Positions 12,320 to 58,431 of a stretch of DNA of 64,000 nucleotides are shown piece after piece (the stretch's first letter is position 1; the number at the start of each line of letters is the position of its first letter). The notes beneath the pieces were generated by a model. The model saw only the letters and a list, made by a program, of their open reading frames with translations. It was not told the origin of the DNA and searched no databases. The DNA comes from Siphonodentalium dalli (lineage: Eukaryota > Mollusca > Scaphopoda > Gadilida > Siphonodentaliidae), in contig CP136062.1 of assembly GCA_032622095.1 (NCBI GenBank), positions 153,692,875 to 153,756,874 on the forward strand. The letters are read 5' to 3'. A program made the translations under genes and the position numbers.

Positions 12320-12709
12320 TTAACCCTTTACCCAACAGAACGGCCCTGTGCCAATGCATTCTCTTATATATGCGAGTCGACCATAGGTCGCCTCGCATAT
12401 ATAAGAGAATGCATTGGCTTAACACATTAAAAATTATAAAATTGTTAAAGAATGTAAGAAAAAATGGTAAAAACAGATTTTTTTTAGGCCAATGCATTCT
12501 CTTATATATGCGAGGCGACCTATGGTCGACTCGCATATATAAGAGAATGCATTGGCACAGGGCATAACTATAACCATCACAATGTGGTCAATGAGCCGGT
12601 TCCAATGATATCCATATTTGTATGGTTCTATTGAGACAGACCGAAGATATTTTAGGCTGTTGAAGCTTTATTTGGCCGGTTTTGGCCAGTTTGTTGGGTA
12701 AAGGGTTAA
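12320..12709 (+). mobile_element. Double-palindrome TTAA MITE, copy B
   Basis: TTAA then CCCTTTACCCAACA; right end TGTTGGGTAAAGGG then TTAA. Next to the left end is a 69-bp palindrome (27-bp perfect arms GCCAATGCATTCTC...GCGAG, a 5-bp inner stem CGACC/GGTCG and loop ATA), then a spacer of about 70 bp, then the same palindrome inverted. A unique right arm of about 150 bp contains 'attgagacagaccgaag'. I define plus orientation as the palindromes lying near the left end. Confidence 0.8.
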
Positions 12710-12853
12710 GCCACGTGCTACTCTCTGAATGACTTCGAATTGTAAAGTGTTCCAAATTGATTGTATGTACATTATATCAGAAAATTCAATATTAATTGAT
12801 AGAAGCGTTTCCAGACAGGGGTCTTCCATTCATATTTAATATCCAGGAAACAA

Positions 12854-12985
12854 TCTAAATCTTATTATAGGCAGAGATAGACCATCTTTAAATCTTATTA
12901 TAGGCAGAGACAGACCATCTTTAAATCTTATTATAGGCAGAGATAGACCATCTTTAAATCTTATTATAGGCAGAGATAGACCATC
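12854..12985. repeat. 33-bp minisatellite, 4 units
   Basis: Four units of 33 bp ('tttaaatcttattataggca' then 'gagatagaccatc'), nearly identical. The next TTAA in the array is where the MITE at 12987 begins. Confidence 0.9.
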
Positions 12986-12986
12986 G

Positions 12987-13342
12987 TTAAAGAGGTACTG
13001 TACACTAAATCCGGTCATTTATGGGACCATCTCATTTTATATTCAACAGAATATATGCAACAAATGAATGAATTTGAGCCATGGATTAGTGCAAAATATG
13101 CTCATGTGCACTATTAACGATTCAAACAACATGGTAATTATAATGAAAATGAATTTATGACTCCAGCCATAAAATCATTTTCATTATAATTAGTGTATTG
13201 TTCTACATCATTCATAAGTAAATGGGGGTATTTTGCACTCATCAGTGGCTCAAATTCATTCATTTGTTGCATATATTCTGTTGAGTATATAAAAGGAGAT
13301 GGTCCCATAACTGGCCGGATTTAGTGTACAGTACCCCTTTAA
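12987..13342. mobile_element. TTAA MITE, AGGGGTACTGTACAC family
   Basis: TTAA plus AGAGGTACTGTACACTAAAT; right end ATTTAGTGTACAGTACCCCT plus TTAA. Long inverted arms include 'atgggaccatctc' and 'aattcattcatttgttgcat'. Related copies: 16958-17217 and a decayed one at 31052-31485. Confidence 0.75.
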
Positions 13343-13991
13343 AACTCACAAACATCTATTATTCTATATGAAAAGTTACCATAGAAATTTTTTTTTTTTC
13401 GAAAAATTATGAATGAACAAGTATGGATGATACTTACGCATGTTCTACTCCTACACCTCCCATCTCTTGATTTAAATTTCCCAGCCATCATTTCCATGTT
13501 CAGTCCAGGAAGATATTATCAAAGAAAAATTCCTTGTCGCTAAGATCTGGATCATAGAAAGTTCTGAAACAGGAACAAGATGGCAAGGATTTCATTGGAG
13601 CAAACGCACAGCATTCAGGAGTCAAACTTATTGAACTATACTCTTCTAAAAAGAATGGGAAATATCAATGAAATTTTAGTAGACGCATAATTTTCAATTG
13701 ATTGCCAATATCACATTCATTGTTTAATTGGCTCAGATTGGTTACCAGTATGGATTTCTTGCAATAATAAACAGCATGTGATGTTAGAGTTACAAGTGCA
13801 ACAGCATTATGGGAAGTTTCTGTACCAAACAGCGTACCAAATGCCATTGAATTTCTTATTTTGAACTTAGGACATACTAAAATATTGCCAGACTTTCATC
13901 AGATTGCTTTCAAAAGTTAACAGGGTGGTTAAATTATATTATTGATTTTATGACATAATGAACATTATGAATGAACAATCATGCTCTAGAA
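13343..13991. other. Unassigned sequence
   Basis: No gene or recognised element. Confidence 0.3.
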
Positions 13992-14361
13992 GTTCAAGGT
14001 ACAAAATCCTATCTGATGGTCCCTGCATCATCAGATTTCAACAACATTTCTTCAAAAGACACTTTAGTTATCAGAATTAATTAATTACCAAAAAATAATG
14101 CTAACCACTTTCAACTTTAGTATAAAATTGCCCAAAAAGTTTTAAATATCAACATTTTGTTCAACGCAATTTGGTATCAAGAGTAGGTTGGTCAGCATTC
14201 ATCAAATATTTGAGTGGTGAAAAATAACATACTTCAAAACTTGAACTCTGATAACTCTGGGCTTTGATGGATAGGTTTCTTAACTAAAATCTAATATTTT
14301 TTACACCCGAAGCCGAAGAAATAGTAATTGATGGGTGTTAAATCAGATTATGTATCTTTAA
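13992..14361. mobile_element. TTAA element, AGGTACTCAATCC family, decayed copy
   Basis: Same order of blocks as 15214-15672, 19556-20043 and 57364-57725: 'gatggtccc', 'catcagatttcaacaac', '...gatgggt', 'gaagccgaagaaatagtaat' and 'cagattatgtatctttaa'. The left TTAA has decayed to TTCA. Confidence 0.6.
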
Positions 14362-14409
14362 TAATGATCAATCAGGGTATACAAGTCAACTCAAAGCTTC
14401 GGAGAAAAG

Positions 14410-15217
14410 GAGTTTCCTTCTTAAATAGAATCTCCCACTCAGTTATAAAAGAAGAAATTGGAACGGTCTATTATTCATCTGGAGGGGTGCTCAGGAAAAA
14501 TAAACACAGACAAAGAGCAAGCCGTCGGGGCGTGGCATAATACGCCCGTTTCTGGAGTAGAGTGGGGCAAGGTTTAATTCATTTGTTTGAAACCTTTGTC
14601 TTAAGACGAAATAATAACAAAATAAAACACAATAACTTCAGGTGTGGTATTTTTGACTGAAAAATTCACATACCAAATTTTTTTATCAATCAGAACTGGA
14701 AACCACATTTCAGGTAAAATCTAAGCCGAAAAAGGGGCACTACTGATTCAAAATCATGCGGACGAAACCCATATTCAAACTTTATCTGTACTTTGGGGTG
14801 GTAAACTAAGATACCAAATTTAGTTCAGTTCACTTGATTCAATCTAAAGTTATCATCCGGAAACCGCAAATCAGGTAAAATCTAAGTCGAAAAAGGAACA
14901 TAACTCAGTCAAAATCATGCGGACGAAACCCATATTCGAACTTGATCTGTGTTTTGGTGTGGTAAACTAATATACCAAATTAGGTTCAGTTCACTCGATT
15001 AAATCTAAAGTTATCATCCAGAAACGAAGAGCAGACGGACGGACGGACAACCCATTTACATAATACGACCGTTTTTTCAGACGGGCATATAATAATAAAG
15101 TGCAGAGGGAGTCCTATTCATTAGAGGTAAATGTTCAGTGTTTGTTGAATTTATTATCTGAACATATTCCTAAGGGATAACTACTCATCAATGTGTATTT
15201 AGTATTGAAAGAATTAA
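14410..15217. mobile_element. TTAA element with 'ctcccactcagttataaa' head and dispersed-repeat interior
   Basis: Left part 'agaatctcccactcagttat' and right part 'actactcatcaatgtgtatt' match the ends of the element at about 59996-60276. The interior (about 14560-15090) has two units of about 165 bp ('aaatcatgcggacgaaaccc', 'tatcatccggaaac') and a run of ggac. The right TTAA is shared with the next element. Confidence 0.55.
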
Positions 15218-15672
15218 TGGTACTCAATCCGATCCGATGGTCCCCATATCATCAAATTCCAACAACAACAATGTTTTTTAAAATGCCGCTCCTGTTATCA
15301 GAATCGATTAATTGTCCAAAAATAATGCTAACCACGGACAACTATAGTATAAAATTGCCCAAAACCTGTTATTTATCAACATTTTGTTTAACGAAATAGA
15401 GCCGGTTTGTCAAATATCTGACACAAAAAAGCCACTTGACTTTAGAGTTATCTATCTTCATCCGCAAATTTGGTCAGAGACCATCTTCACGTCGACTTTT
15501 ACTGGACCACTAAAAATTATTGGTGGTGAAAAATAATATATATTTCAAAAATCGATATATGATCACTCTGAACTTTGATGGGTGGGTTCCTCGACTCGAA
15601 TCAAATATTTTGACCCCTGAAGCCAGGGAAAATAGTAATTTGCAAGCGTTAATTTTGATTATGCATCTTTAA
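15214..15672. mobile_element. TTAA element, AGGTACTCAATCC family
   Basis: TTAATGGTACTCAATCCGAT at left, GATTATGCATCTTTAA at right. It contains 'ggttcctcgactcgaatcaa' and 'gaagccagggaaaatagtaa'. No coding capacity. Confidence 0.65.
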
Positions 15673-15802
15673 CAAAGTGGTTAGGATTAAATATTTTGAA
15701 CAAGCATCAATTATAAAGCAAAAATAAGTCCTGAATGTCATCTATGCATAGAGACTGTATAGAGACTGTGCATTTCTATTCAGAAAATATAACACCAAGT
15801 AA

Positions 15803-16300
15803 AGGCCTGAGTTTAGTGTGCCTTTCATTTGCAGAATGAGGTCCCCAGAGGGTGAATTTAGTGACGCTATCCCGCATCAGAATGAGGTCGCCAGAGAGTG
15901 AATTTAGTGACGCTATCCCACATAGCTAAGCATCACTAAATTCTCCCTCTGGGTACCTCTTTCTGCTTAGGCCTAATCTTCTCTGGAAAGTTTCTTTATT
16001 ATTTCTATAGAAACTTCTTCATAGATTATATTTCTTTTTAAGTTTAGTTTCTCTATATCCCCAAATTGGCAGACGATCGACACATTGCAAAATCAAGGTT
16101 CCCAATGGGTGTACATCACATATTCACCATTTGGGAACTTCAATCTGAGTCTATTTCTCCCATAGCAGATGAGGCCATGCAGAATGAGGTCCCCAGAGGG
16201 TGAATTTAGTGATGCTAGCCTTGTAGCCGGGATAGTGTCACTAAATTCACCCTCTGGGGACCTCATTTTGCAAATGACAGGCACACTAAACTCAGACTTG
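15803..16300. mobile_element. hAT-type MITE, GAGGTCCCCAGAGGG family, copy c
   Basis: Termini of the subfamily CCTGAGTTTAGTGTGCCT and its complement. It has four copies of the 'gaggtccccagagggtgaat' block in inverted pairs. The central part, 'ctctatatccccaaattggc', is the same sequence that is split in the copy at 23330-25135. Confidence 0.7.
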
Positions 16301-16425
16301 ACCAACATTGAAAAAAACAGCCTTTTCAGCTTGAGTCAATAGCTACCAAACAAATGTGCAGCCATGAAGTGTAAATTGAAAGAAAAAACATGCAGCAATA
16401 AATAAGTTCAATGAGACCATGTGTG

Positions 16426-16574
16426 CAAGCCTTGAAATAGTGTGTCTGTCATTTGCAGAATGAGGTCCCCAGAGGGTGAATTTGGTGATGCTAGCCCACT
16501 ATGCGGGGTAGCATCACTAAATTCACCCTCTGGGGACCTCATTCTGCAAATGACAGACACTATTTCAAGGCTTG
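16426..16574. mobile_element. hAT-type MITE, GAGGTCCCCAGAGGG family, short palindromic copy d
   Basis: 149 bp; the two halves are near-complete inverted copies (CAAGCCTTGAAATAGTGTGT ... complement) around a small centre. It would fold into one hairpin. Confidence 0.75.
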
Positions 16575-16957
16575 AGTGCGTGTTCAGCGAATCATAATAA
16601 TTAATACTGAAGGAAAGCATTTAGCTGCTTGGCGAGATTCGCCTCTTCAATGGTGATAAGAATTGGTTTATTTGCAAGCACTCAGTAATGGGTAATCAAT
16701 TATTTTGAGAGCAATGCACCAATTGGTTCCTATTGGTGGGAGATTCTTCGCACAATTACAGCTTGACGACTGGAAAATATGAAACTGTTTACTTTATAGC
16801 GAATCAATATAGTAATTATAGTCAGTGATATGATTTCAGTCAGAGGTGCAAATAATAAAGAGGAATAACTCTATTATGTAAAACAAAGCTTGAAGTTCAT
16901 GACCTGCAACGGTGCAGGGAGGGAAGAGGTTTATCTAACTTTTAATGTCCAACTGCC

Positions 16958-17217
16958 TTAAAGGGGGACTGTACACTAAATCCAGCCATTTATGGGACCA
17001 TCTCCTTTTATAGTCAACATAATATATGCAACAAATGAAAGAGTTGAGACATAAAATAATTTTCGTTATAATTACCATGTTGTTTGTGAATGTTCATAGA
17101 GCACATATTATGCACTAATCCGTGGCTCAAATTCATTCATTTTTTGCATATATTCTGTTAAGTATAAAAGGAGATGGTCCAATAAATAGCCGGATTTAGT
17201 GTACAGCCACCCTTTAA
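16958..17217. mobile_element. TTAA MITE, AGGGGTACTGTACAC family
   Basis: TTAA plus AGGGGGACTGTACACTAAAT at left; ATTTAGTGTACAGCCACCCT plus TTAA at right. 260 bp. Absent from copy 2 of the surrounding duplication. Confidence 0.75.
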
Positions 17218-17397
17218 GCCAAATTTTAGTTAGGAATTTGATTTCGAGTTTTCCAATGGGTACCTCTAGGTTTTCAACTGTTTAATAATTCCAAACAAAT
17301 ACCCCCCAATAGGAAAATTTCCAACTAAGGGTGGTTTCAGTGTAAAATTTGAATGAAAGTATGAAAATATTTCACTCTGTTTATACTATATTTTCGT

Positions 17398-17797
17398 TTA
17401 ACCCTTTACCCAACAGAAGGGCCCTGTGCCAATGCATTCTCTTATATATGCGAGTCGACCATAGGTCGCCTCGCATATATAAGAGAATGCATTGGCTTAA
17501 CACATTAAAAATTATAAAATTGTTGAAGAATGTAAGAAAAAATGGTAAAAAGTGTTAAAAAAAGATTTTTTTTAGGCCAATGCATTCTCTTATATATGCG
17601 AGGCGACCTATGGTCGACTCGCATATATAAGAGAATGCATTGGCACAGGGCATAACTGTAACTATCACAATGTGGTCTAGGAGCCGGTTCCAATGATATC
17701 CATATCTGTATGGTTCTATTGAGACAGACCGAAGATATTTTAGGCTGTTGAAGCTTTATTTGGCCGGTTATGGCCGGTTTGTTGGGTAAAGGGTTAA
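17398..17797 (+). mobile_element. Double-palindrome TTAA MITE, copy C
   Basis: Same structure as copy B. Left TTAACCCTTTACCC, right GGGTAAAGGGTTAA; palindromes at about 17427-17495 and 17576-17644. The matching site in the second copy of the duplication (about 18400-18430) is empty. Confidence 0.8.
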
Positions 17798-17888
17798 ATA
17801 TCAGTACAATCTCAACCTACTTCAGTGTTCCCGCAACAATTTTCAATGTTTTCTGAAGGTATCTTCTCTAATATTCAATGTCATTTCT

Positions 17889-18440: not shown

Positions 18441-18559
18441 CTAGCCTTTCCATTGTTTTTTTTTTAAATACTGGATAAACATCAATGTAAAGAAAAAATT
18501 AAATAAGCATCACAAATATGTGACTTTAGGCTTAATAATATCAATTTAGATAATTCTTC

Positions 18560-19059: not shown

Positions 19060-19389
19060 GAAAACTAACTTTATGCCCAAATTATCAGTCATGAAGCCAT
19101 CTCTGAGGTAAAATATGTGCTAAGTGGAATGTTTGTTATATTTATAAAAAAAATAAAAAATTCTACAGATAATTTTTTAGTCAAATCTACCACCAGTAAG
19201 TCTTCAATTATTATGAACTATTTATTAACATAAAATGAAATATTTTGATGATCATTTCTTAAATAACTTTTGCAGTAAATTATCCTGTGTTGCCAGTTTT
19301 CAAGGCATGCCACTGCTTCCTGTTCAATAATTTGAGCATCTATTGTCCTTAAAAATTGTAAATTCCAACTTAAAAACCCCTATTGAAAT
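19060..19389. other. Unassigned AT-rich sequence
   Basis: Nothing recognised. Confidence 0.3.
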
Positions 19390-20340: not shown

Positions 20341-20556
20341 TGCAGTAATGCCCTAAGTAATCGACCCCTTAACCACAGCAGAATTATGGGTAACTTTTCA
20401 GGATTTAGTCGGAAATATGGCTTGTTGCCATTCATCTGAAAGCTCTCGGGGAGAGCTTTCTGATGAATGGCAACAAGCCATATTTCCGACTAAATCCTGA
20501 AAAGTTACCCATAATTCTGCTGTGGTTAAGGGTCGATTACTTAGGGCATTACTGTA
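20341..20556. mobile_element. CAGTAATGCC foldback MITE
   Basis: Nearly perfect palindrome: arms of about 105 bp ('cagtaatgccctaagtaatc' ... 'ggcttgttgccattcatc') and a centre of a few bases (ctctcggggagag). Likely TA target. Four similar full copies lie in the window. Confidence 0.8.
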
Positions 20557-20810: not shown

Positions 20811-20850
20811 TCAACAAATGATCTTTTCATCTGACTGTCATCTGCTAATT

Positions 20851-21246
20851 TAAGTCGGGATTTTTTTTACCCTGTGCCAATGCATTCTCTTATATATGGG
20901 AGTCGACCATAGGTCGCCTCGCATATATAAGAGAATGCATTGGCCTAACAATATTTTTACAATTTTAATAATTTTTTCTTGTATTCTTTAACAATTTTAT
21001 AATTTTACCCATACAGAGCCCCAGACAAACATGAGCAGACGACACTCTTCTATATATGTGTGGGGCTCCCTGCAGGGTAATGGATGTTTTTTATTTTATG
21101 TCCTAAAAAATGTAAGAAACATTTATTTTAAAAAAATTCTAAAAAATTGTTAGGCCAATGCATTCTCTTATATATGCGAGGCGACCTATGGTCGACTCGC
21201 ATATATAAGAGAATGCATTGGCACAGGGTAAAAAAATCCCGACTTA
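20851..21246. mobile_element. MITE copy D: palindrome cassettes inside TAAGTCGGGA termini
   Basis: Termini TAAGTCGGGATTTTTTTTAC and its complement ending TCCCGACTTA. Both palindromes of the double-palindrome family are present, with boundaries ACCCTGTGCC and GGCACAGGGT. The centre holds an unrelated block, about 21010-21095 ('gagccccagacaaacatg' ... 'gtggggctccctgcag'). Confidence 0.7.
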
Positions 21247-21849: not shown

Positions 21850-22790
21850 CTTGTTTGATGCTGGAAACGATAGCATATTCACATTCTAAGGTTTCAAGCA
21901 AGATTGTTTCATGGCTACAATTTGTCTTGACTTACTGAACAACCATTCGCTGGTTACACTGGTCACGCATATATAAAATTATTTCATGGCACTCTTCGCT
22001 AGCATTGGATAATTGGACCACCAGTCTAATGGATTTCTCTCGAGGTCGAGGTAGGACGCACTACCATAACATGTAATTTCGTCATCAAGAGTTGACACTG
22101 CACTCTCATTGTTCAAGACAAACATACTGTCCCAAAGTTATTTTGCGATTGGTCTCAGGATCCTCACAATCGTCTTTATTCACTACATTTTCTTGTTTGG
22201 CCTTGATGCAGTGTCGGATACAGGTCCTTTCATCAGCGATGTTTTCTCTAAACGCTTTCGAAGTGTTCTTTGGACAGATATTGACACTAAAATCAAGGGT
22301 CCAGGTATGTCGCCACACTAAGCATTTCGTCAAGGCATAATTTTCAGCAGATAGAATATCTGTAAATTCACTGACTGGTTTCAGACTGCTGACATCGTTC
22401 GACTATCCTGCCACGTTAGGATAAGATGTAATGTCTTTTTGAGCGAATTAGATCCACTATTGTTTTGACCATGTCATATTTCGCACCCCATCTCCGACAT
22501 CTCGTTGACAGTCAGCAACAAGGGATTGTTGTTTAATTTCCATTTCGCGCAGTTCAAATAGCTCTTAAATTGCGCCAACGAATCAAACTTGTAGAGAAAG
22601 CAGAAACTATCGCACGGCAAATACAAAGCAATCTGCTTACATGCTTAGCTTTCATCGAGTTGTTGACAGCCATATTGTGCCCGAAGCAAGAAAGGTTTTT
22701 CCAAACGCGAATGTTAACAGCTTTTATAATGCTTGACTATTGTCTGTTGTTATCACGATCAGGATTAAGATTAAGACTCCACAAACTTAA
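21850..22790 (-). pseudogene. hAT (ZBED-type) transposase relic
   Basis: Conceptual translation on the minus strand, crossing frames, gives successive hAT landmarks: W-N-LSCFGH near 22701, IVSAFSTS, LVADCQR (the usual DC-TRW region) near 22530, LKPVSEFTDILSAENYA near 22350, then LDDEITCY, NPLDWWSNYPMLAKSAMK near 22020 (the C-terminal dimerisation motif), TSVTSEWLFS near 21950 and SCLKP-NVNM at the end. Frameshifts and in-frame stops separate these blocks, including one inside LKP*NVNM at 21888-21886, so it is dead. It is cut at its upstream end at about 22787, where a TTAA MITE begins. Known role of the family: cut-and-paste transposition with 8-bp target duplications, matching the many hAT-type MITEs here, although I cannot link this relic to any of them. 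Confidence 0.75.
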
Positions 22791-23244
22791 CCCTTTACCC
22801 AAAAGAACGGCCCTGTGCCAATGCATTCTCTTATATATGCGAGTCGACCATAGGTCGCCTCGCATATATAAGAGAATGCATTGGCTTAACACATATTAAA
22901 AATGATAAAATTGTCAAAGAATGTAGAAAAATATTATAAAAATTGTTAAAAAATGTAAGAAAAAATTATAAAATTGTTAAAGAATGTAAGAAAAAATGGT
23001 AAAAAGTGTTAAAAATTGTTAGGCCAATGCATTCTCTTATATATGCGAGGCGACCTATGATCGACTCGCATATATAAGAGAATGCATTGGCACAGGGCAT
23101 AACTGTAACCATCACAATGTGGTCAATGAACCGGTTCCAATGATATCCATATCTGTATGGTGTTATTGAGACAGACGGAAGATATTTTAGGCTGTTGAAG
23201 CTTTATTTGGGCGTTTTTGGCCGTTTTGTTGAGTAAAGGGTTAA
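22787..23244 (+). mobile_element. Double-palindrome TTAA MITE, copy E
   Basis: TTAACCCTTTACCCAAAAGA at left, GAGTAAAGGGTTAA at right. The spacer between palindromes is longer (about 140 bp) because an A-rich block is repeated. It truncates or interrupts the hAT transposase relic. Confidence 0.8.
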
Positions 23245-23588
23245 ACAATCAGTACTTCCCGGCGTGATACTAGTATTCTCGCAGTGTGATTATTGGGGAA
23301 GTAAAATGTCTCCAGAACAGAACTTTGTACAAGTCTGAGTTCAGTGTGTCTGTCATTTGCAGAATGAGGTCCCCAGAGAGGGAATTTAGTGACGCTATAC
23401 TGAATAGCGGGCTAGCCTCACAAAATGCACACTCTAGGGACCTCATTCTGCATGGCCTCATCTGCTATGGGATAAATAGACTCAAGATTGCAGTTCCCAA
23501 ATGGTGAATACTGAGATGTACACCCATTGGGAACCTCTATTATGCAATGTGTCCTCTGCCAATTTGGGGATATAGAGAAACTAAACTA

Positions 23589-24957: not shown

Positions 24958-25236
24958 TAAAAAGAAATAGAATCTAGGTGAAGAAATTTTATAATAAAGA
25001 AACTTTCCAGAGAAGATGAGGCCTAAGCAGAATGAGGTCCCCAGAGGGTGAATTTGGTAATGATAGCCTGCTATACTAAACTCACCCTCTGGGGACCTCA
25101 TTCTGCAAATGACAGGCACACTAAACTCAGGCTTGACTTTGTGTAGCACATCGCACATATACAGAAAATAGCTTAGTCATTAGGCTAAATTAATGACAGC
25201 TAGGGACCTGTGGACATCGAAAATATATCTTACTAG

Positions 25237-26493: not shown

Positions 26494-26497
26494 CTTA

Positions 26498-28307: not shown

Positions 28308-28709
28308 TTAACCCTTTACCCAACAAACCGGCCAAAACCGGCCAAATAAAGCTTCAACAGCCTAAAATATCTTCGGTCTGTCTCAATAGAACCATACATA
28401 TATGAATATCATTGGAACCGGCTCCTTGACCACGTTGTGATAGTTACAGTTATGCCCTGTGCCAATGCATTCTCTTATATATGCGAGTCGACCATAGGTC
28501 GCCTCACATATATATAAGAGAATGCATTGGCCTAAAAAAAATCTTTTTTTAACACTTTTTACCATTTTTTCTTACGTTCTTTAACAATTTTATAATTTTT
28601 AATGTGTTAAGCCAATGCATTCTCTTATATATGCGAGGCGACCTATGGTCGACTCGCATATATAAGAGAATGCATTGACACAGGGCCATTATGTTGGGTA
28701 AAGGGTTAA
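28308..28709 (-). mobile_element. Double-palindrome TTAA MITE, copy F
   Basis: Reverse orientation: the right-arm sequence 'ccggccaaataaagcttcaa' comes first. Palindromes at about 28460-28530 (with a 2-bp TA expansion in one arm) and 28613-28681. TTAA on both sides. Confidence 0.8.
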
Positions 28710-30842: not shown

Positions 30843-31040
30843 TACAGTAATGCCCTAAATAATCGACTCCTTAACCACAGCAGAATTATGGGGAATTCTT
30901 CAGGATTTAATCGGAAATATGGCTTGTTGCCATTCATTGAGAGCTTTCCGATGAATGGCAACAAGCCATATTTCCGACTAAATAAATTCCCCATAATTCT
31001 GCTGTGGTTAAGGAGTCGATTATTTAGGGCATTACTGTAC
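30843..31040. mobile_element. CAGTAATGCC foldback MITE
   Basis: Near-perfect palindrome with arms of about 95 bp around 'cattgagagctttccgatg'. Ends TACAGTAATG and CATTACTGTA; TA is the likely target. Confidence 0.8.
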
Positions 31041-31051
31041 ATGGGAAATCA

Positions 31052-31485
31052 TTAAAGGGGGCCTGTACCTAAATCCAGCATAAATCTCCTGATATAATCA
31101 ACAGAAATATCCAATATAAGAATTAATATCAGTCAAGAATGAGACTCACCATGTATAATAACCTGATAACTATAACGAAAATGAGTAAAAGGCTTAAGCC
31201 ATTTACACATTTTCCTCATAATTTCCATGTTTTTCACATAGTTCATATAATACATTAGTGTATTTTGCAGTCATCCCTGACTAAAATTCATTCATTTGTT
31301 GTTTATTCTACCTTTGTATAGAGTAGGAGATGGCCCCAAACACAAACTTTTTTTATTGGAGAGCTATCAATTAATATAACAACAAAGTTTATTTATTCTC
31401 CATGTTCTTCTTAGTGGTGATGTTTTTGACAGACTTTTATAATTTGTACACATTTACACCCTTCGTACGCCTTGGGTCCCTTTAA
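31052..31485. mobile_element. TTAA MITE, AGGGGTACTGTACAC family, decayed
   Basis: Left TTAAAGGGGGCCTGTACCTA; inner 'aattcattcatttgttg' and 'gagtaggagatggcccc' match 12987-13342. The right end 'gggtcccTTTAA' shares its TTAA with the next MITE. Confidence 0.5.
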
Positions 31486-31873
31486 CCCTTTACCCAACAA
31501 ACCGGCCAAATAAAGCTTCAACAGCCTAAAATATCTTCGGTCTGTCTCAATAGAACCATACAAATATGGATATCATTGGAACCGGCTCCTTGACCACATT
31601 GTGATAGTTACAGTTATGCCCTGTGCCAATGCATTCTCTTATATATGCGAGTCGACCATAGGTCGCCTCGCATATATAAGAGAATGCATTGGCCTAAAAA
31701 AAAATCTTTTTTTTAACACTTTTTACCATTTTTTCTTACATTCTTTAACAATTTTATAATTTTTAATGTGTTAAGCCAATGCATTCTCTTATATATGCGA
31801 GGCGACCTATGGTCGACTCGCATATATAAGAGAATGCATTGGCACAGGGCCCTTCTGTTGGGTAAAGGGTTAA
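31482..31873 (-). mobile_element. Double-palindrome TTAA MITE, copy G
   Basis: Reverse orientation, TTAACCCTTTACCCAACAAA at left and TTGGGTAAAGGGTTAA at right. Both palindromes intact (about 31625-31693 and 31776-31844). Confidence 0.82.
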
Positions 31874-32209: not shown

Positions 32210-32462
32210 TACAGTAATGCTCTAAATAATCGACTCTTTAACCACAGCAGAATTATGGGTAACTTTTCAGGATTTAGTCGGAAATATGGCATGTTGCCAT
32301 TCATTGGAAAGCTCTGAAATATGGCATGTTGCCATTCATTGGAAAGCTCTCACTGAGAGCTTTCCGATGAATGGCAACAAGCCATATTTCCGACTAAATC
32401 CTGACAAGTCACCCATAATTCTGCTGTGGTTAAGGAGTCGATTATTTAGAGCATTACTGTAT
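32210..32462. mobile_element. CAGTAATGCC foldback MITE with internal duplication
   Basis: Ends ACAGTAATGC and GCATTACTGT. Near the centre the block 'gaaatatggcatgttgccat' plus 'tcattggaaagctct' occurs twice in tandem, which makes the left arm 35 bp longer than the right. Confidence 0.8.
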
Positions 32463-32494: not shown

Positions 32495-32820
32495 TAAGCC
32501 TTCAAATAGTGTGTCTGTCATTTGAAGAATGCTTAGGCCTCATCTTCTGGGAAGTATCTATAGTCTCAAATTAACATTGTTTTTCGTTACTTTTTTCCTT
32601 CTGTTTAGTTCCTATATCCCCTAATTTGCAGAAGATAAAATGCGTATCTTCAACTGGGGAACTTCAATCTGATCTTATGTCTCCCATAGCAGTTGAGGCC
32701 TCAGCAGAATGAGGTTCCCAGAGGGTGAATTTGGTGATGCTAGCTGTGCTATGCTGGATAGCATCACTAAATTCACCCTCTGGGGACCTCATTAAGCAAA
32801 TGACAGACACACTATTTGAA
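32495..32820. mobile_element. hAT-type MITE, GAGGTCCCCAGAGGG family, copy g
   Basis: Left AAGCCTTCAAATAGTGTGTC; right 'gacagacacactatttgaa'. The left outer 'gaggtcccc' block is lost, so it is an internally deleted copy. Confidence 0.65.
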
Positions 32821-32831
32821 CACATGAAGAC

Positions 32832-32917
32832 TTAACCCTTTCAGTGCCAGGTCCGATTTTTGTATCAACCCATATTTCCTTGATCATTTTTCAAATTGAT
32901 TGATTATAAAGGGTTAA
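32832..32917. mobile_element. Very short TTAA MITE, CCCTTTCAGTGCCA end
   Basis: 86 bp from TTAACCCTTTCAGTGCCA to TATAAAGGGTTAA. It resembles the termini of copy A (CCCTTTGAGTGCCA) with almost all of the interior lost. Its right TTAA is shared with copy H. Confidence 0.5.
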
Positions 32918-33377
32918 CCATTTCCCCAACAAAACGGCCAAAAATGCCCAAATAAAGCTTCAACAGCCTAAAATATCTTCAGTCTGTCTCAATAACACCA
33001 TACAAATATGGATATCATTGGAACCGTTCATTGATCACATTGTGATGGTTACAGTTATGCCCTGTGAAAATGCATTCTCTTATATATGCGAGTCGACCAT
33101 AGGTCACCTCGCATATATAAGAGAATGCATTGGCCTAAAAAAAAATCTTTTTTAACACTTTTTACCATTTTTTCTTACATTCTTTATCAATTTTATAATT
33201 TTTTCTTACATTTTTTAACAATTTTTATAATATTTTTCTACATTCTTTGACAATTTTATCATTTTTAATATGTGTTAAGCCAATGCATTCTCTTATATAT
33301 ACGAGGCGACCTATGGTCGACTCGCATATATAAGAGAATTCATTGGCACAGGGCCGTTCTGTTGGGTAAAGGGTTAA
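32914..33377 (-). mobile_element. Double-palindrome TTAA MITE, copy H
   Basis: Reverse orientation. The left end has diverged (TTAACCATTTCCCCAACA); the right end is TTGGGTAAAGGGTTAA. The spacer is extended as in copy E. Palindromes carry a few substitutions. Confidence 0.8.
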
Positions 33378-33834: not shown

Positions 33835-34232
33835 TTAACCCTTTACCCAACAAACCGGCCAAAACCGGCCAAATAAAGCTTCAACAGCCTAAAATATCTT
33901 CGGTCTGTCTCAATAAAACCATACAAATATGGATATCATTGGAACCGGCTCCTTGACCACATTGTGATAGTTACAGTTATACCCTGTGCCAATGCATTCT
34001 CTTATATATGCGAGTCGACCATAGGTCGCCTCGCATATATAAGAGAATGCATTGGCCTAAAAAAATCTTTTTTTAACACTTTTTACCATTTTTCTTACAT
34101 TCTTTAACAATTTTATAATTTTTAATGTGTTAAGCCAATGCATTCTCTTATATATGCGAGGCGACCTATGGTCGACTCGCATATATAAGAGAATGCATTG
34201 GCACAGGGCCCTTCTGTTGGGTAAAGGGTTAA
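33835..34232 (-). mobile_element. Double-palindrome TTAA MITE, copy I
   Basis: Reverse orientation, TTAA at both ends, both palindromes intact (about 33986-34055 and 34136-34203). Confidence 0.82.
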
Positions 34233-36246: not shown

Positions 36247-38145
36247 TCATACATCATACTTTTCAGCCATGATGAGAACAGTGAGGGACGACCACCCTGT
36301 GAATGGATGACTCCCTTTTCCTTCACCTGTCTTATCAGAATAGTTCTCCCAAATATACCCAGTCCTCTGGTATTCCTTGATAACATTTTTTATAATATTT
36401 GCCCGCAACTGTGTGTACAGGTCTTGGGCTGCATCCTGATATGGCCCGGGGGTCACAGAGTAATGATTTAAGGCACTCACAGCGAGATAGTTCATGTTTA
36501 TCCACACAGCACCCCGCCAGTACGGCGGATCATGTTCGGTGTTGTATCTATTATACAGCGGTGATGACTTTGCAAAAGAGCGGAGCCCAAAATTGGTCCA
36601 CAGCAAGTTTGGATCTCGCAAATCATTGATAACTTTGTTAAGCTTTGGTGAACCTGGTTCGATCATATGAAGCAAGAAGGGAAACAAACTGACATACCCA
36701 AAATACGAGTCAGCAAATTTGTATTTCGGCTCGTCAGAAACAACTCGCACTTTATCCAGGAGAACATGAGAAGGCGGTTGGCCAGGTTTGACATTTTGAG
36801 TTGGACGCTCTAGCTTAACGTTGTCTGTGTGAAGTCCAAAATCGCTGTATCGCTGCTTAGAGGCAGACCAATGAAGTTCGTCAAGAATTTGATTGTCGGT
36901 CAGAGCTTCATAAGTTGATTCGTATTCCTTTGAATCCTCACCCAATGAGTTAGCGATGTCAGCCATGAGTTTAGAAGCGAAAGCCATCCAGCACCGGAGA
37001 TCTAAATGATATTCTAAATCAGTAGGATGAGATGCTCGGGGATAATCGTCCAGTCCAGAGGTCAATGTCAGTGGATTAAGCTGGTTGGTGCTCGTAGAAT
37101 TTCGGCCTCTCCATCTATATGTATAAGGCTTAGATCCAGCTTGACTTGTGTTGTACCACTTATACCAAGCTTTGAGTCTAGGGAAAACATTTTTTATATA
37201 TTCCTTATCCCCGAGACGATCACTTTTAATCATACTTTTTATGAGTTTTTGAAGCGGTAGAATAAGTGTAGGAGGATTCGCATTCTCACTTTTCTGCACG
37301 ATGAATTCAGCTGGGACTTTCGCTCTCGCTTCAGGTCCTAAAATTTGTTCTCGTGGAATCCAGCCATCAATGTTCACCAAATCTAACCAATGAGCTAATA
37401 TATCCTTGGAAATCTCCTCATCCCATTGGCTAATTAGCAAGTTATGAAATCCTTCATCCCACAGGAACCCACGAGGAAAAAACGATCTTGATGGTACAGC
37501 TGTGTACAGTGGTGTTTTCCAAGAGGTCACAGGTTGATCACTGTGAATAGACTTCACTATGGACTCGCCATAAAAGTAACCTATTCCACCAAGCATATTA
37601 CTCAATGCTGCCTTTGCGAAAACAATTTCCTCTTCATTATAACCTTGATAGCCAAGTTCAAACTTCTTTTCAAACTTTTCGTTAAAGATCTTTTTGTTCT
37701 CTCTGAGAAGATTTGCGAAGTCTGTTCCAGATAGCGTCATTGGTCGAGGTTGTGTGCTCCCAGATTCGAACACGACTTCAGTCTCAAATGGCAGTTTGGC
37801 CGTTATTTGACTCACGACATAATTAGCTCCAGGGCTATCTCTTGGTATCAGTTTGCCAGCCAGCGCAAAGTAAGGAACGGTTCTCCCTTTATCCCATGCC
37901 TCGACTTTCATCCCACTAAACGTCACTTCCCTCAAATTAGCGATAGATGGTGCATAGGTGATCAGATGGTTAAATTTTTGCTGTGGTGATTTGGATTTTG
38001 AGAACTGCATTTCAAAAGGTCCGGTTGATGCTGACGACCCTTTGATGCCAGATAATCTCTGTTTGTTAAACAGTGGTTTGATTTCGCCTTCTCCATCCAA
38101 CACCATGTATGACAGAAGGGTGACAACTGTGTTCCTCTCTTTACC
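36247..38145 (-). CDS. MOGS: MOGS coding exon 2: GH63 catalytic domain to stop
   Basis: Encodes the last 632 residues of ER glucosidase I in one uninterrupted exon. The acceptor is a pyrimidine tract followed by TTTAG|GGTAAAG; the frame is phase 0 and joins exon 1 as ...ARIAIIPK|GKERNTVVTLL..., where the human protein also runs without a gap. GH63 hallmarks, in joined numbering: GGIGYFYG (about 377-384), VPSRSFFPRGFLWDEGFH (about 408-425), DGWIPREQILG (about 451-461), ANPPTLILPL, SGLDDYPRASHP (554-565, where the family's proposed general-acid Asp lies), HDPPYWRGAVW (729-739), WENYSDKTGEG (790-800, candidate general-base Glu) and PFTGWSSL (805-812). Total length is 823 residues; human MOGS is 837. 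No frameshift or stop is seen, so the gene looks functional. The last codons IMAEKYDV are echoed by repeats in the 3' flank. Confidence 0.93.
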   Translation of the reverse strand, partial: GKERNTVVTLLSYMVLDGEGEIKPLFNKQRLSGIKGSSASTGPFEMQFSKSKSPQQKFNHLITYAPSIANLREVTFSGMKVEAWDKGRTVPYFALAGKLIPRDSPGANYVVSQITAKLPFETEVVFESGSTQPRPMTLSGTDFANLLRENKKIFNEKFEKKFELGYQGYNEEEIVFAKAALSNMLGGIGYFYGESIVKSIHSDQPVTSWKTPLYTAVPSRSFFPRGFLWDEGFHNLLISQWDEEISKDILAHWLDLVNIDGWIPREQILGPEARAKVPAEFIVQKSENANPPTLILPLQKLIKSMIKSDRLGDKEYIKNVFPRLKAWYKWYNTSQAGSKPYTYRWRGRNSTSTNQLNPLTLTSGLDDYPRASHPTDLEYHLDLRCWMAFASKLMADIANSLGEDSKEYESTYEALTDNQILDELHWSASKQRYSDFGLHTDNVKLERPTQNVKPGQPPSHVLLDKVRVVSDEPKYKFADSYFGYVSLFPFLLHMIEPGSPKLNKVINDLRDPNLLWTNFGLRSFAKSSPLYNRYNTEHDPPYWRGAVWINMNYLAVSALNHYSVTPGPYQDAAQDLYTQLRANIIKNVIKEYQRTGYIWENYSDKTGEGKGSHPFTGWSSLTVLIMAEKYDV

Positions 38146-38226: not shown

Positions 38227-38659
38227 GAAGCCTGCAAATAGTGTGCCTGCCATTTGCAGAGTGAGGTCACCAGAGGGTGAAATTAGAAATGCTATCCTGC
38301 ATGGTTGGCCAGCATCACCAAATTCACTCGCTGGGGACCTCAATCTGCTTAGGCCTCATCTTCTGGGAATTATCTATAGTCTCAAATTAACATGGTCTCT
38401 AGGTACTTTTTCCCTTCTGGGAAGTTTCTATATCCCCTAATTTGGAGAAGATAAAATACATTATCGAGGTGACAAATGGGTGAATATCACCAACTTCAAC
38501 TGGGGAACTTCAATCTGATACTAGCAATTGAAGCCTAATCAGAATGAGGTTCCCAGAGGGTGAATTTGGTAATGCTAGCCCACCATGCAGGTTAACTTAA
38601 CTAAATTCACCCTCTGGTGACCTCATTCTCACATGACAGACACACTGTTTGCAGGCTTG
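38227..38659. mobile_element. hAT-type MITE, GAGGTCCCCAGAGGG family, copy h
   Basis: Left AAGCCTGCAAATAGTGTG, right TGTTTGCAGGCTTG; four inverted 'ggtgaattt' blocks. It lies just inside the acceptor end of the MOGS intron, about 80 bp from the exon. Confidence 0.7.
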
Positions 38660-38674
38660 TGGGTTAGGTCAGAG

Positions 38675-39073
38675 TTAACCCCTATACCCAACAGAAGGGC
38701 CCTGTGCCAATGCATTCTCTTATATATGCGAGTCGACCATAGGTCGCCTCGCATATATAAGAGAATGCATTGGCTTAACACATTAAAAATTATAAAATTG
38801 TTAAAGAATGTAAGAAAAATGGTAAAAAGTGTTAAAAAAAGATTTTTTTAGGCCAATGCATTCTCTTATATATGCGAGGCGACCTATGGTCGACTCGCAT
38901 ATATAAGAGAATGTATTGGCACAGGGCATAACTGTAACTATCACAATGTGGTCAAGGAGCCGGTTCCAATGATATCCATATTTGTATGGTTCTATTGAGA
39001 CAGACCGAAGATATTTTAGGCTGTTGAAGCTTTATTTGGCCGGTTTTGGCCGTTTTGTTGGGTAAAGGGTTAA
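38675..39073 (+). mobile_element. Double-palindrome TTAA MITE, copy J
   Basis: Plus orientation inside the MOGS intron. Left TTAACCCCTATACCCAACAG, right TTGGGTAAAGGGTTAA. Palindromes at about 38705-38773 and 38852-38920. Confidence 0.82.
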
Positions 39074-39217: not shown

Positions 39218-39612
39218 TTAACCCTTTACCCAACAAACCGGCCAAAACCGGCCAAATAAAGATTCAACAGCCTAAAATATCTTGGGTCTGTCTCAATAAA
39301 ACCATACAAATATGGGTATCATTGGAACCGGCTCCGTGACCACATTGTGATAGTTACAGTTATGCACTAATGCATTCTCTTATATATGCGAGTCGACCAT
39401 AGGTCGCCTCGCATATATAAGAGAATGCATTGGCCTAAAAAAAATCTTTTTTTAACACTTTTTACCATTTTTTCTTACATTCTTTAACAATTTTATAATT
39501 TTTAATGTGTTAAGCCAATGCATTCTCTTATATATGCGAGGCGACCTATGGTCGACTCGCATATATAAGAGAATGCATTGGCACAGGGCCCTTCTGATGG
39601 GTAAAGGGTTAA
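39218..39612 (-). mobile_element. Double-palindrome TTAA MITE, copy K
   Basis: Reverse orientation, 145 bp from copy J, so J and K face each other in the intron. A small deletion removes the outer bases of the first palindrome (tatgcactaatgcattc). Confidence 0.82.
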
Positions 39613-51379: not shown

Positions 51380-51395
51380 CATTTTGGCAATTTAT

Positions 51396-52807: not shown

Positions 52808-55592
52808 TACCCCGCTGGACAAAACAAGTGTCCACTTAACCGCGGTGCGGTTTGCGTTGCCACCGCGACCGAACTGCAACAACACCGCGGCTCCACCGGC
52901 TGATTGCAGTTCGGCCGCGGTGTACTTGTCGTTCAGCCGCGGTGTACTTGCCGTTCGGCCGCGGTGTAGTTGCCGTTCGGCTGCGGTGTACTTGCCGTTC
53001 GGCCCGCGGTGTACTTGCCGTTCGACCGCGGTGTACTTGCCGTTCTTGGAATGATGTTGAAAAACACAAAGAGGGCACCATAAATGAGACTTGATTGAGG
53101 CCATTGTCTAAATACCGTCCGTCAGACGATCTATTATATGTTTGAGGTTTAATCTGTCTGGTGACAAGGTGTGATAATCTTTTAAGTAGTCAACGTACGT
53201 CCCACCAGTAAACTGTCATAAAATCAAGGTGTCATAATCCATCCTGATTAGAAAAGGCTCCCGCTGATAATTATTAGGCGACACGGAAGTGTGATGTTGC
53301 CGACAACAGACTTCGTCTAGATTTGGCAGCACGTGTCTTTTTGAGAAATAAGCATTGGAATGTCGTGCACACGTGGCAGCCTCATCATGAGAGAATTGAA
53401 TCACTATGCTGTCATTTAAGACTGATTATAAAATAAGGATTGTCGCATCCTACTTTGAACTGTTTGTTTGCCCATGTTGAAATATTTGTTATTGTGATGT
53501 TGTTTTCTCTTGTTAAATTTTTTTTTTTTTACATTAATTAAAACTATTATTTGGTTTGAATTATATACTGACAACATCCACCCATGTGGACCTCCTTTTG
53601 GAATTCACTGCCGTCCATTGAATGGATAAAAATATGTGCCAGAATTGTCTTCAGAATGAACAATAAAGAGCGTTTGTGCGTGATCAGGTATTTTTCTCCC
53701 GCGAGGATTTTATGAACCTAAATATTCAAATCCTTTCAATACCGTGGTTACTTTAAAGACAAAACTGCGACAGCATGCCAATTGAACTTTGATAAAACTT
53801 GAAAGGGAATATCGAGGAGAAAGTGACATGTCATAATCATGTTAACTCAAACAGTTACGATGTAGCAAACAATGTCATTGCTACATTCCTCGCGCCCAGT
53901 TTCTGAATAATGCTGACGTAATCGCGTGCACCTGGCATTTGAGATGTACAGATGTGCGCAAAATTAACGGCGGTTATCAACCTCCCAATCGAGGGTTTCA
54001 CTCAATTTTTTGTGGCAATATACGTAAACAATACTTTATAATGGATATATAACAAAATAAAAATTTAATGAGGCATGCATGGTTTATACATCCATTGAAT
54101 AAAAGCGACCACGTGGTTCGTTTTTGTGAATTTGCAATAGATCGGATATGGGAGGGAGATCATGGGATCATTAGAATTGTGCTAAATTAATCGGCTTTCT
54201 GTGAAACACGGTACCAGAGCGCATCGCTTCAACAAAACGGGAATATCTGAGAATGTACTGCCGTTGCGAAAACAAAAAAAATCGTGGTTCTCCGTTTTTT
54301 TTATTGGCGTATACGGCGCCGCTGTGTATTCCAATGTTTATTTATTTATGAAACTCTATTACAGTAAGCATGTTTGTTGAGATACTATACTTGTCAATAT
54401 ATGTCATATCTATCTGGTTTTTAAAATCCAGATTCCTACATAAATTATACCAGTAATAAACGCATGCATGACGTATTGACCGCGTGGTTGTTTGTGCACG
54501 CGAGGTTTTCCCCGAATTATCTGGGCTAGTGGTTTTCAAAACTTGTCAACATGAAATTTTTTATTTGAATATGATGACTAAATTCTTATATTTAGGAATG
54601 TTGGTAGAGAATACAATAAATGGTGTATTTTCAATAGCTTGTTAATGCATAATAAAACGGAAAACATTAAATGAATTGAAAAGCTTACCGCCCACCCCTA
54701 ATTTCGGGGTGTCCGTTCGGGGAAACGTGTGCATTATTCCTTTTGACCTTATACACGTGTCCCATCACAATTCTAATTTGTTTTTCAACACACAATGTTT
54801 GTGTAATCTTTATTCAGTCCATCCTCTGGTGGCAAATACCGTGGACTTATAGATCGAGCAAAGTGTAAAATGTCGCGTATTTTCAGTTTCTGGCAATTAA
54901 TTTTTACTTGGCAATGGATTTGCCACATATATGGATCGATAATATAACACTTTTATTTAATATGCTCATTTGATCATATTTTTTTTTTCAAAAATAATAG
55001 CAACTCTAATAAAAACATGGGAATCATTTTATTTACCAAATCTCGGTTATGCTGTCAAAGCATACCACATTAGAACAAAATATCGGTAAGCTCCTCCCAC
55101 AGCCAAGAAATTAAAGCAGAGAATAAAATCTCACAAACTAATCCTGGATGATTGACAGGTGTATGTCGACGTGCTAGCATGCACAGGATCGACACATGAA
55201 GTTTTTTTTTATATTTGACAACAAAGTTCCATTAAAATCTACCGGTACGTTAGATCGTTGAAACAGTTGGGTTAAATATAAATGTGATTTGCATAATGAC
55301 CTTAAAGCCGATATTTAAATATGTACGGATTTAAATTTCCTGTTATTAAAAATACTAACCTTCGTATATTTCTACTAATAAAACATGTTTTAAACTCGAG
55401 AAAAAAAGACGATACAAACCAGGAATCTAACCCCGGTGTACTTGCCGTTCGGCCGCGGTGTACTTGCCGTTCGACCGCGGTGTACTTGCCGTTCGGCCGC
55501 GGTGCTCAGCCGCGGTTCCACAAAGTGACACCGCGGCCGAACGGCAAGTACACCGCGGTGGCATTGGACACTTGTTTTGTCCAGCGGGGTAT
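52808..55592. mobile_element. 2.8-kb element with TIRs and 21-bp arrays near both ends
   Basis: Left TACCCCGCTGGACAAAACAA, right TTGTTTTGTCCAGCGGGGTA, an exact inverted pair continuing through 'gtgtcca'. Next to each end is an array of 21-bp units ('gtacttgccgttcggccgcg'): about 6 units at 52911-53045 and about 4 at 55436-55555, the last one inverted. The 2.4-kb centre (about 53050-55430) has no recognised gene. Superfamily unknown. Confidence 0.65.
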
Positions 55593-55795
55593 GTGCATTC
55601 ATAAATGTCACTTTACGCAGCACAGGGATATACCATGTAATTTAAAAATTATAAAATACAATATCAAAATTATGGGCGGCAGCTTTTTTGTAGGGTCGAA
55701 AACAAAAATCTTTTTTTGTTTGGCCTGAACTTGTCACGGCACATTTTTCTTAATTTCAAAGGATGAGCACTACTAGTAGTACATGCAGGTATCAC

Positions 55796-56368
55796 CTTTG
55801 GAATGATTGCGATTCTTGCTGTCCAATCTTTCCATATGGCGCCAGGTCGTTTCACAAATTCTGTTCTCACAATGAAGTCCTGTTCTTCCATCTCCTGGAC
55901 TCCGAAGTTACTGCCATCATGAAGTAACCATCCATACCGAGCAAGATCATCACCCTGGTCACACCAATGTCTGACGTCGGGAGGATTCTTGCCATCCATT
56001 TGTGTAAACCACATGATTCCAAACAATGGTGAATTTGCATTTTTTGATTTCATCCCGAAATACAGCTGTGGACGGTATGTTCCCCAAAACTTTGACGAAT
56101 CAACATGCAGACTGCTGACATTTGTCTGAACAACTTTATTTACAGCAAGAGGGAGGCGAACTCTTTCTTTGAGATAGCTCATGTATTGGTAATATACCAT
56201 TAGGATAACAAAAGACACTGCCAATGCAAAACATAATCCCAAAGCAGACGATTTTCCCGTCCCGGTAGAACTGTTATTATTGTGATTTTGTTCAATATCA
56301 GAGATTCTTTGCGGCAATTTTTCGACTGCACGTCTTCTAATATCCCGCTCTCGGCTGTTTCTTGTCAT
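55796..56368 (-). CDS. MOGS: MOGS coding exon 1: cytosolic tail, membrane anchor, start of lumenal domain
   Basis: First coding exon of mannosyl-oligosaccharide glucosidase (glucosidase I), which trims the outermost glucose from the N-glycan precursor in the ER. The 191 residues show a basic N-terminus (RERDIRRR, 6-13), a hydrophobic type II anchor at about 41-62 and then the conserved lumenal start: FWGTYRPQLYFGMK (94-107), CDQGDDLARYGW (136-147) and RTEFVKRPGAIW (168-179). I chose the ATG at 56368 because it has A at -3 (ACAATGA). An in-frame ATG at 56386 would add six residues but has a weaker context. The open frame extends a little further upstream but begins with TTG there. The exon ends after a complete codon at CAAAG|GTGATA, phase 0. 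The next recognisable piece is exon 2, 17.65 kb downstream. Confidence 0.9.
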
Positions 56369-56410
56369 TGTTCGCTTTAGCCACATGCAATTACATCGGA
56401 AACAGCACAA

Positions 56411-57075
56411 AAAATACCACTTTATCTACAAAAAATTCATAATCAGCCACGTTTACTAAAAACAAATAGACCGGAAGCGATAAATTACGTCCCTTGGTTT
56501 GTTCTTTTCATTCAGTTACCGCCCTTGTTGTGCAAAATTAACGTTCTTCTGCCAAGGACTTGATTGTCATTATGATGAAATAAAATTGCAGACTGTTGTA
56601 CATGTAACATTCCAGTTATATGGGGCTGGATCAACATATGTAATATGTGAAAAGTTACTATTATGTACATGTATATTATAGATTATTTATTTCAATAAGT
56701 AGGAAGGAGTTATCCATTTTCTGGGGAAATAGTGCCTCACAGCCCTCACTACATCCTGTGCAATTCATTTGCACTTCAGCAACATTGGATTATGCTCCAG
56801 TAATTTATTTATTTTATTTATTTATTTCAGTGGAATTGATTGCACTTTAGCACAATTGATTACTAGTATGATTCAGGTCAATTTGAATTTTGTTTCAGAA
56901 CAATTGATCGCACTGAAGCGCAATCTATTGCACTGAAGCTCAATTAAATTGCACTGCATGGTTCACGCACAATTGAATTTCAATCAGTCATAATAAATCT
57001 GAATTTTACCTCCCTTGTTCGAAGTTGTTCCCTTGTGGGGAGTTACCCACCAAATAGTATATGCCCTGGCACATT
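56411..57075. other. MOGS 5' flank, no clear promoter motif
   Basis: I see no TATA box or CpG-rich block. About 56755-56985 contains diverged short repeats around 'caattgattgcactttagc' and 'cgcactgaagcgcaat'. The 5' UTR and any non-coding first exon cannot be placed. Confidence 0.35.
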
Positions 57076-57314
57076 CAAGCCTGCTAATAGTGTGTCTGTC
57101 ACCGAGGAAACTACAGTAATGGGTGAACATTACCATCTGCAACTGGTGAACTTCAATCTGATCTTAGGTCTCTCATAGCAGTTGAGGCCTAAGCAGAATG
57201 AGGTTCCCAGAGGGTGAATTTGGTGATGCTAACACGCTACACGTGATAGCGTCTCTAAATTCACCCTCTGGGATCATCAGTCTGCAAATGACAGACACAC
57301 TATTTGCAGGCTTG
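57076..57314. mobile_element. hAT-type MITE, GAGGTCCCCAGAGGG family, copy i
   Basis: CAAGCCTGCTAATAGTGTGT at left, ACACACTATTTGCAGGCTTG at right; GGCACATT and GGCATATT flank it, an 8-bp target duplication with one difference. Confidence 0.82.
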
Positions 57315-57363
57315 GGCATATTTAATCTTGACTGCTGATTTGTTGAAATGAATGGGCAATAGT

Positions 57364-57725
57364 TTAAAGATGCATAATCTGATTAAACGAACATAAATTA
57401 ATATTTCTTTGGCTTTGGGGGTAAAAAAAATATTTGATTAGAGTCTCCTCGACTCTAATCAAATATTTTTTTTACCCCCAAAGCCAAAGAAAAGCCACAG
57501 TTTAGACTGATCAGATATCGATTTTTGAAAATTGTTATTTCCCGAGATATATGTAATTTTTGGTGGCTGCGAAATATTTGTCAAGTCGACGGTCTCGGAC
57601 CAAATTGCAGATGAAGATGGATAACTCTAAAATCAAGTGACTTTGGGTGTTAGATATTTGACAATCTGAATTGGAATTGCAATCTGATGATATGGGGACC
57701 ATCAAAACGGATTGAGTACCTCTAA
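57364..57725. mobile_element. TTAA element, AGGTACTCAATCC family, reverse copy
   Basis: Left TTAAAGATGCATAATCTGAT; right CGGATTGAGTACCTCTAA. It carries the hairpin at 57412-57502 formed by an inverted duplication of the 'tttggctttgggggtaaaa' block. Confidence 0.6.
57412..57502. repeat. Perfect or near-perfect hairpin, arms about 43 bp
   Basis: 'tttctttggctttgggggta' through 'tgattagagtc', then about 4 bases (tcct), then the complement. In sister copies (19636, 15575, 14290) the block is single, so this inversion is particular to this copy. Confidence 0.85.
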
Positions 57726-58074
57726 CTGTTATTTTTTGGAGGCGAAGAGTGTGATATTTCAAAATTCAAGACTAAGAAATTATTGATATCATTTTTGCGA
57801 CTGCGAAACATGTACATTGCACAACTTAAGAGGGAGGTCAAAATTATCATATATTTAAATTCCATGCAAATCTCTAGGGCAAAAGATACCTACTGGTAAG
57901 AGTTTATGAGTGAGAGGTATACAATATTGCAAATATTATATTTATTTGTAGAATGAGCTGGGGACATGTTTTATAAGAATATTTGTGTTTTTATTTTAAA
58001 TTTTTCGTTAGTTATATGTAATGTTTAAAGATGCATAATATTAATAGTTGCTTTAGTTTTGACTACTGCTTCAT
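57726..58074. other. Unassigned AT-rich sequence
   Basis: Nothing recognised. Confidence 0.3.
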
Positions 58075-58431
58075 TTAACCCTTTACCCAACAGAACGGCC
58101 CTGTGCCAATGCATTCTCTTATATATGCGAGTCGACCATAATGCATTGGCTTAACACATTAAAATTGTTAAAAAATGTAAGAAAAAATGTTAAAAAAAGA
58201 TTTTTTTTAGGCCAATGCATTCTCTTATATATGCGAGGCGACCTATGGTCACTCGCATATATAAGAGAATGCATTGGCACAGGGCATAACTGTAACCATC
58301 ACAATGTGGTCAATGAGCCGGTTCCAATGATATCCATATTTGTATGGTTTTATTGAGACAGACCCAAGATAATTTAGGCTGTTGCAGCTTTATTTGGCCG
58401 TTTTTGGCCGGTTTGTTGGGTAAAGGGTTAA
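58075..58431 (+). mobile_element. Double-palindrome TTAA MITE, copy L, half palindrome lost
   Basis: Plus orientation, TTAA at both ends. The first palindrome jumps from its loop (cgaccata) straight to 'atgcattggc', deleting most of one arm; the second has lost one G in the inner stem. Confidence 0.8.

Follow-up and report, generated by a model that had tools for sequence, protein, structure and literature searches.

A 75-bp block, in which the hexamer CCCTGT is joined to a 69-bp palindrome, recurs in small elements with three different terminal contexts within a single 64-kb window (the whole stretch of DNA analyzed, 64,000 nucleotides of presumably animal origin with an AT content of 63%, on which all counts are based). 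Our tentative reading, to which we assign somewhat less than an even chance, is that this block acts in cis as a subterminal module of small non-autonomous elements, shared by exchange and kept for mobilization.

The palindrome module and its copies

The palindrome consists of 27-bp arms, an inner stem of CGACC/GGTCG and the loop ATA, with a single T.C mismatch where arm and inner stem meet. When we searched the 64-kb window for the arm with a tolerance of up to 8 mismatches, we found 46 arm-like sites, 45 of which belong to palindromes; the site at 21964, with 8 mismatches, belongs to none. As the earlier note on this DNA had described, the palindrome is found paired in ten elements of one type (T1; B, C and E-L), once in element A and twice in element D. 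These account for 20, one and two modules, respectively, giving 23 in the window, 22 of them complete and one, in L, truncated (Table 1). All copies had previously been placed between 12320 and 58431, a range that leaves out A.

In 22 of the 23 modules, CCCTGT directly borders the palindrome; in the remaining one, a module of K, it is deleted. Counting its lost place in K, it faces outward in every module. In T1 and D, the modules form an outward-facing inverted pair with an AT-rich spacer between them. The palindrome starts at position 31 in T1 elements B and C, at position 52 in A and at position 26 in D.

Variation among the modules was assessed by an ungapped comparison over 75 bp of 21 modules, leaving out both modules of L, which carry deletions. 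Twelve were identical to the consensus and five had one difference, while the modules of H showed 3 and 2 differences. In one module of K, 6 of the first nine positions deviated, which a gapped alignment resolves as a 5-base deletion, and one module of F has a 2-bp insertion. The 27-bp arms had been reported as perfect, which does not apply to all of them, 12 of 21 modules being identical over 75 bp and those of L carrying deletions. The T.C mismatch was kept in 21/21 modules compared, a constancy that points to one origin of the module. For comparison, the real window contained 37 hairpins with arms of at least 18 bp, 21 of them from the palindrome module, and one mononucleotide shuffle of the window contained 0, the low-complexity filter having been applied to the real window only.

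Table 1. Positions of the elements, the A-type remnant and the glucosidase gene parts within the window.
Feature	Positions	Strand	Details
Element A	2775-3255	+	TTAACCCTTTGAGTGCC...GGCACTCAAAGGGTTAA, 481 bp, one module
75-bp module of A	2820-2894	+	1 substitution vs consensus
T1 B	12320-12709	+	two modules; palindromes 12350-12418, 12488-12556
T1 C	17398-17797	+	both modules equal consensus; palindromes 17428-17496, 17576-17644
Element D	20851-21246	+	TAAGTCGGGATTTTTTTTA-CCCTGT...ACAGGG-TAAAAAAATCCCGACTTA, 396 bp; palindromes 20876-20944, 21154-21222
T1 E	22787-23244	+	long-spacer subfamily; palindromes 22817-22885, 23023-23091
T1 F	28308-28709	-	2-bp insertion in one palindrome
T1 G	31482-31873	-	
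A-type end without palindrome	32832-32917	+	86 bp; matches A over 2775-2823 only
T1 H	32914-33377	-	long-spacer subfamily
T1 I	33835-34232	-	
GH63 C-terminal domain (glucosidase)	36250-38145	-	Pfam
T1 J	38675-39073	+	
T1 K	39218-39612	-	CCCTGT missing from one module
Glucosidase N-terminal domain	55673-56425	-	Pfam
T1 L	58075-58431	+	23-column deletion in one palindrome, 1 bp in the other

The three terminal contexts

The ten T1 elements are 357-464 bp long, too short to hold a transposase, and each carries an inverted module pair. TTAA was found at both ends of 10/10 elements, and CC[C/T]T adjoins it at 18 of the 20 ends, which is the terminal motif given for piggyBac-type elements in the available text of PMC2872659. 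The tips read TTAACCCTTTACCC with small variation. Seventeen of 20 ends are CCCTTTACCC, and the deviating ends are CCATTTCCCC at the left of H, CCCCTATACC at the left of J and, read inward, CCCTTTACTC at the right of E. The left module begins directly after the 24-bp tip; the other palindrome is more distant from its tip, and in B it is followed by 153 bp, counting ACAGGG. The spacers of E and H are longer and built of repeated units. From the TTAA at both ends and the piggyBac-type tips, T1 probably represents TTAA (piggyBac-like) non-autonomous elements. Since ten TTAA-flanked copies lie in different flanks and each contains the module, T1 multiplied as a unit with the module inside it.

Pfam identified a mannosyl-oligosaccharide glucosidase gene in two parts on the minus strand of the window, and the T1 elements J and K are placed between these parts, presumably within an intron of the gene. 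The glucosidase parts were the only Pfam matches above the curated cut-off, and no transposase was detected, in the 20 of 48 stop-to-stop frames of at least 85 aa that were scanned. A DoxX_3 match below the cut-off (17.2 vs 25 bits), in a frame overlapping element E, was dismissed.

Element A has TTAA tips other than those of T1, and its module follows after 45 bp. Another A-like end, TTAACTCATTCAGTGCC, starts within the element at 2969, implying that A is itself a mosaic. An A-type end without the palindrome is found at 32832-32917, and this remnant aligns with the left end of A (86%) across 49 bp, as far as 2823, its remainder being unmatched there; the block of A starts at 2820. Because this palindrome-free relative matches A only up to the block, the module of A looks acquired, and we regard the remnant as the best evidence for such an acquisition. 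As a separate observation, the right-hand TTAA of the remnant is also the TTAA of H, so that TTAA elements are stacked at one TTAA (32832-33377).

In D, the ends outside the CCCTGT boxes are 18-19 bp long, and within the window their only matches are to each other (E up to 0.01). At its two sides D has TTAA (left) and TTAC (right) or, equally possible, TA on both, and it may be a TA element or a decayed TTAA element. A and D each have one copy in the window. Of the three MITE types named earlier, D as a type rests on that one copy. Neither A nor D looks like a recombinant of T1: the flank of A matches the 32832 element and gave no T1 match, and the outer ends of D match only each other. The earlier note had also considered that all copies might lie within one MITE family from which A and D had recombined, and this is not what we found in the window.

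The center of D, at 21017-21072, appears by eye to contain a further imperfect hairpin, GAGCCCCAGAC...GTGTGGGGCTC, whose stretch CTATATATG resembles the palindrome arm; it is possibly an older relative of the palindrome. The RNA fold of D reaches -228.5 kcal/mol (z -27.7), a stability that arises from the inverted repeats and makes no statement on function. Rfam gave no match at the gathering score in the window, and a relaxed search of D returned 27 matches, mostly to microRNA models, the best with an E value of 4e-14 (MIR5048) and all below the family gathering scores. As any long hairpin may give such matches, they were not taken as evidence for or against D being a microRNA.

Several other repeats were noted in the window. 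A second foldback repeat, with the core GCAGAATGAGGTCCCCAGAGGGTGAATTTAGTGACGCTA and its reverse complement, occurs at 15805-16576, 23333-23480, 25001-25137, 32705-32828, 38230-38660, 57167-57316 and 58929-59000. Its outer flank has at least two forms, ending in CTGTCATTT or GAGGCCTAA, and it is perhaps another shared core with different ends. A third foldback family lies at 20366-20532, 30911-30977, 32327-32379 and 58652-58724, its copy at 20366 having 82-bp arms with at most 1 mismatch and a 3-base loop. Two separate tandem arrays, at 52904-53045 and 55434-55504, share the same GC-rich 22-bp unit. Lastly, a tRNA-derived SINE-like sequence, ggtggctcagtggtaag, was recognized by eye at 12096-12240, and ARAGORN reported no tRNA in the window.

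Extent, constancy and origin of the shared unit

The shared unit had been given as 69 bp, but it is larger, comprising CCCTGT, the palindrome and an AT-rich spacer beside the palindrome that is homologous in T1, A and D. The spacer of T1 element E matches that of D at 87% over 62 bp and that of A at 79% over 73 bp, while A and D match at 93% over 41-46 bp when shifted by ~30 bp and at 75% over 63 bp in register. The matches of the D spacer to T1-E and to A are consistent with a D-like source family, in which case T1 and A would be D-like interiors fused to piggyBac-type ends and the palindrome would be unselected. The module also sits beside each end of D, as the inner part of its long inverted repeat. 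This origin nonetheless seems to us very improbable, as it requires CCCTGT to have been the fusion point twice and leaves the constancy of the block unexplained.

That constancy was evident among the T1 copies. Changes common to at least two copies (parsimony-informative) were found in 0/138 palindrome columns compared to 13/250 columns of host and spacer (Fisher p = 0.005), or 11/171 host columns alone (p = 0.0014); the test covers ten related copies and the columns present in copy C, so that the additional spacer sequence of E and H is for the most part outside the count, and the result is a modest one. Singleton changes affected 11/1356 palindrome cells and 36/2449 cells elsewhere (p = 0.09). 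Pooling all T1 changes gave 11/1356 vs 73/2564 cells and p = 1e-5, a value inflated by the kinship of the copies. Since singletons are nearly as frequent in the palindrome as elsewhere, copies decay after insertion, and it is the source lineage that stayed constant.

A similar trend was observed between carriers. When A, both modules of D and one module of E were compared (six comparisons, including one between the two D modules), the 75-bp block differed at 1-2 sites, whereas 11-23% of the aligned sites differed in the spacers of the same carriers. The corresponding p values ranged from 0.00014 to 0.08, with four of six below 0.002 and two at 0.05 and 0.08. This test is weaker than the T1 column test because AT-rich spacers are difficult to align and may evolve at a higher rate.

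Near-identical blocks in three carriers with diverged spacers could also result from break repair at the palindromes together with ectopic gene conversion, which would keep the block constant without any role in transposition. Consistent with this, private mutations were slightly fewer in the block, CCCTGT included, than in host and spacer (p = 0.049). Within the palindrome, however, they were not clearly rarer than elsewhere, as given above, and no private mutation is common to both modules of any T1 element compared. As the T.C mismatch is constant in 21/21 modules, we reject correction between the arms of one hairpin; this counts against gene conversion, and we consider this explanation distinctly unlikely.

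Two origins had been proposed in the earlier note, a smaller element hopping into MITEs or the repeated capture of a favored module. In a specific form of the first, CCCTGT-palindrome-spacer-palindrome-ACAGGG would be a small TA-target, mariner-like transposon that inserted once each into the T1 ancestor, A and D. We think this rather unlikely. The CCCTGT boundary common to three contexts and the A-type relative without the module agree with it, as do the TA dinucleotides seen at both edges in D, at one edge in T1 copy I and at the left edge in A, although the pair in D is uninformative since the flanks of D themselves form a ~17-bp inverted repeat. T1, on the other hand, has CGG or GGG on one side and CATAAC on the other, and none of the nine T1 elements that retain both edges shows a target duplication around CCCTGT...ACAGGG, K having lost one edge. 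In addition, A has only half the module pair, and 0/23 modules in the window are free-standing. We therefore see little in favor of a hopping element. Repeated capture fits better with the three terminal contexts, the module-free A-type relative and a block that is constant in the amplifying lineage.

A possible role in mobilization and comparison with known systems

If the block is a subterminal cis-acting module, it would have passed into the lineages of A and D when elements exchanged sequence, through template switching in gap repair or through recombination, and it would have been retained because its carriers were mobilized better. By analogy, the palindrome would most likely serve as an internal binding site of the mobilizing transposase. 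According to the available text of PMC7351741, piggyBac has a 19-bp palindromic internal repeat that is bound by pairs of transposase C-terminal domains, and the accessible portion of PMC11707139 describes imperfect palindromes of piggyBat bound in the same paired manner. Since these domains bind palindromes near the tips, a palindrome near TTAA-type tips is mechanistically plausible as such a site. The same portion of PMC11707139 reports that a subterminal site of piggyBat can also inhibit activity, so a regulatory role for the block is also possible. Against the cis-acting reading stand the length of the palindrome, a multiple of the 12-19 bp given in the text available for the sites of piggyBac and piggyBat, the 153-bp distance of the other palindrome of T1 B from its tip, and the possibility that D is no TTAA element. 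A further proposal, which we hold to be unlikely, is that the block is a portable mobilization handle, with one transposase reading the internal hairpin more than the tips. If true, elements with unrelated ends, and perhaps different target sites, would be moved by the same machinery.

We looked for the sequences themselves beyond the window. A literature search by sequence string found the T1 tip, the A tip and the first 14 arm bases in no paper, and exact patterns of the arm, the palindrome core and the T1 tip each gave 0 matches in viral contigs. The 21-base arm pattern had one match in genome contigs (L001, Clostridium), which was taken as chance as its surroundings are not this palindrome. 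A distant search of T1 element C against phages gave no match.

In overall layout, the elements resemble piggyBac and piggyBat in having palindromes inside TTAA-type tips (PMC7351741, PMC11707139, as far as their available text goes), and the palindromes of T1, like those of piggyBac, are asymmetric relative to the two tips. They differ in that the sites of piggyBac and piggyBat are short and bound by the transposase C-terminal domain, and the 69-bp palindrome is a putative site. The V-domain of SINEs, which the accessible part of PMC6887750 reports to be carried by the MER6 DNA transposon, is likewise a conserved block that has spread within elements of a different class; unlike the block described here, it is a SINE domain in a DNA transposon.

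One close precedent was found in the literature on MITEs, palindromes and TTAA elements, namely the CMITE families of Acropora corals. As described in the portion of PMC2872659 available, these are small TTAA-flanked, piggyBac-type, non-autonomous elements, and several families with different terminal repeats share an internal region, conserved more strongly than their tips, for which the authors suggested a role in transposition. T1, A and D likewise have an internal region common to families with different tips. The coral elements are ~100 bp long with one 75-base internal region, whereas the elements here measure 357-481 bp, their shared unit is a long palindrome found mostly as inverted pairs, and one carrier, D, is maybe no TTAA element. 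The internal sequences are unrelated, no match in the window to the 60-bp CMITE consensus from that text being better than E 1.3. The principle is thus already known from the CMITE report, as far as its available text shows, and the sequence and layout observed here are different. That text left open how non-coding elements recruit a transposase and why an internal sequence outlasts the tips; a constant hairpin common to three tip types would, if genome-wide data confirm it, provide a concrete and testable cis-element for these questions.
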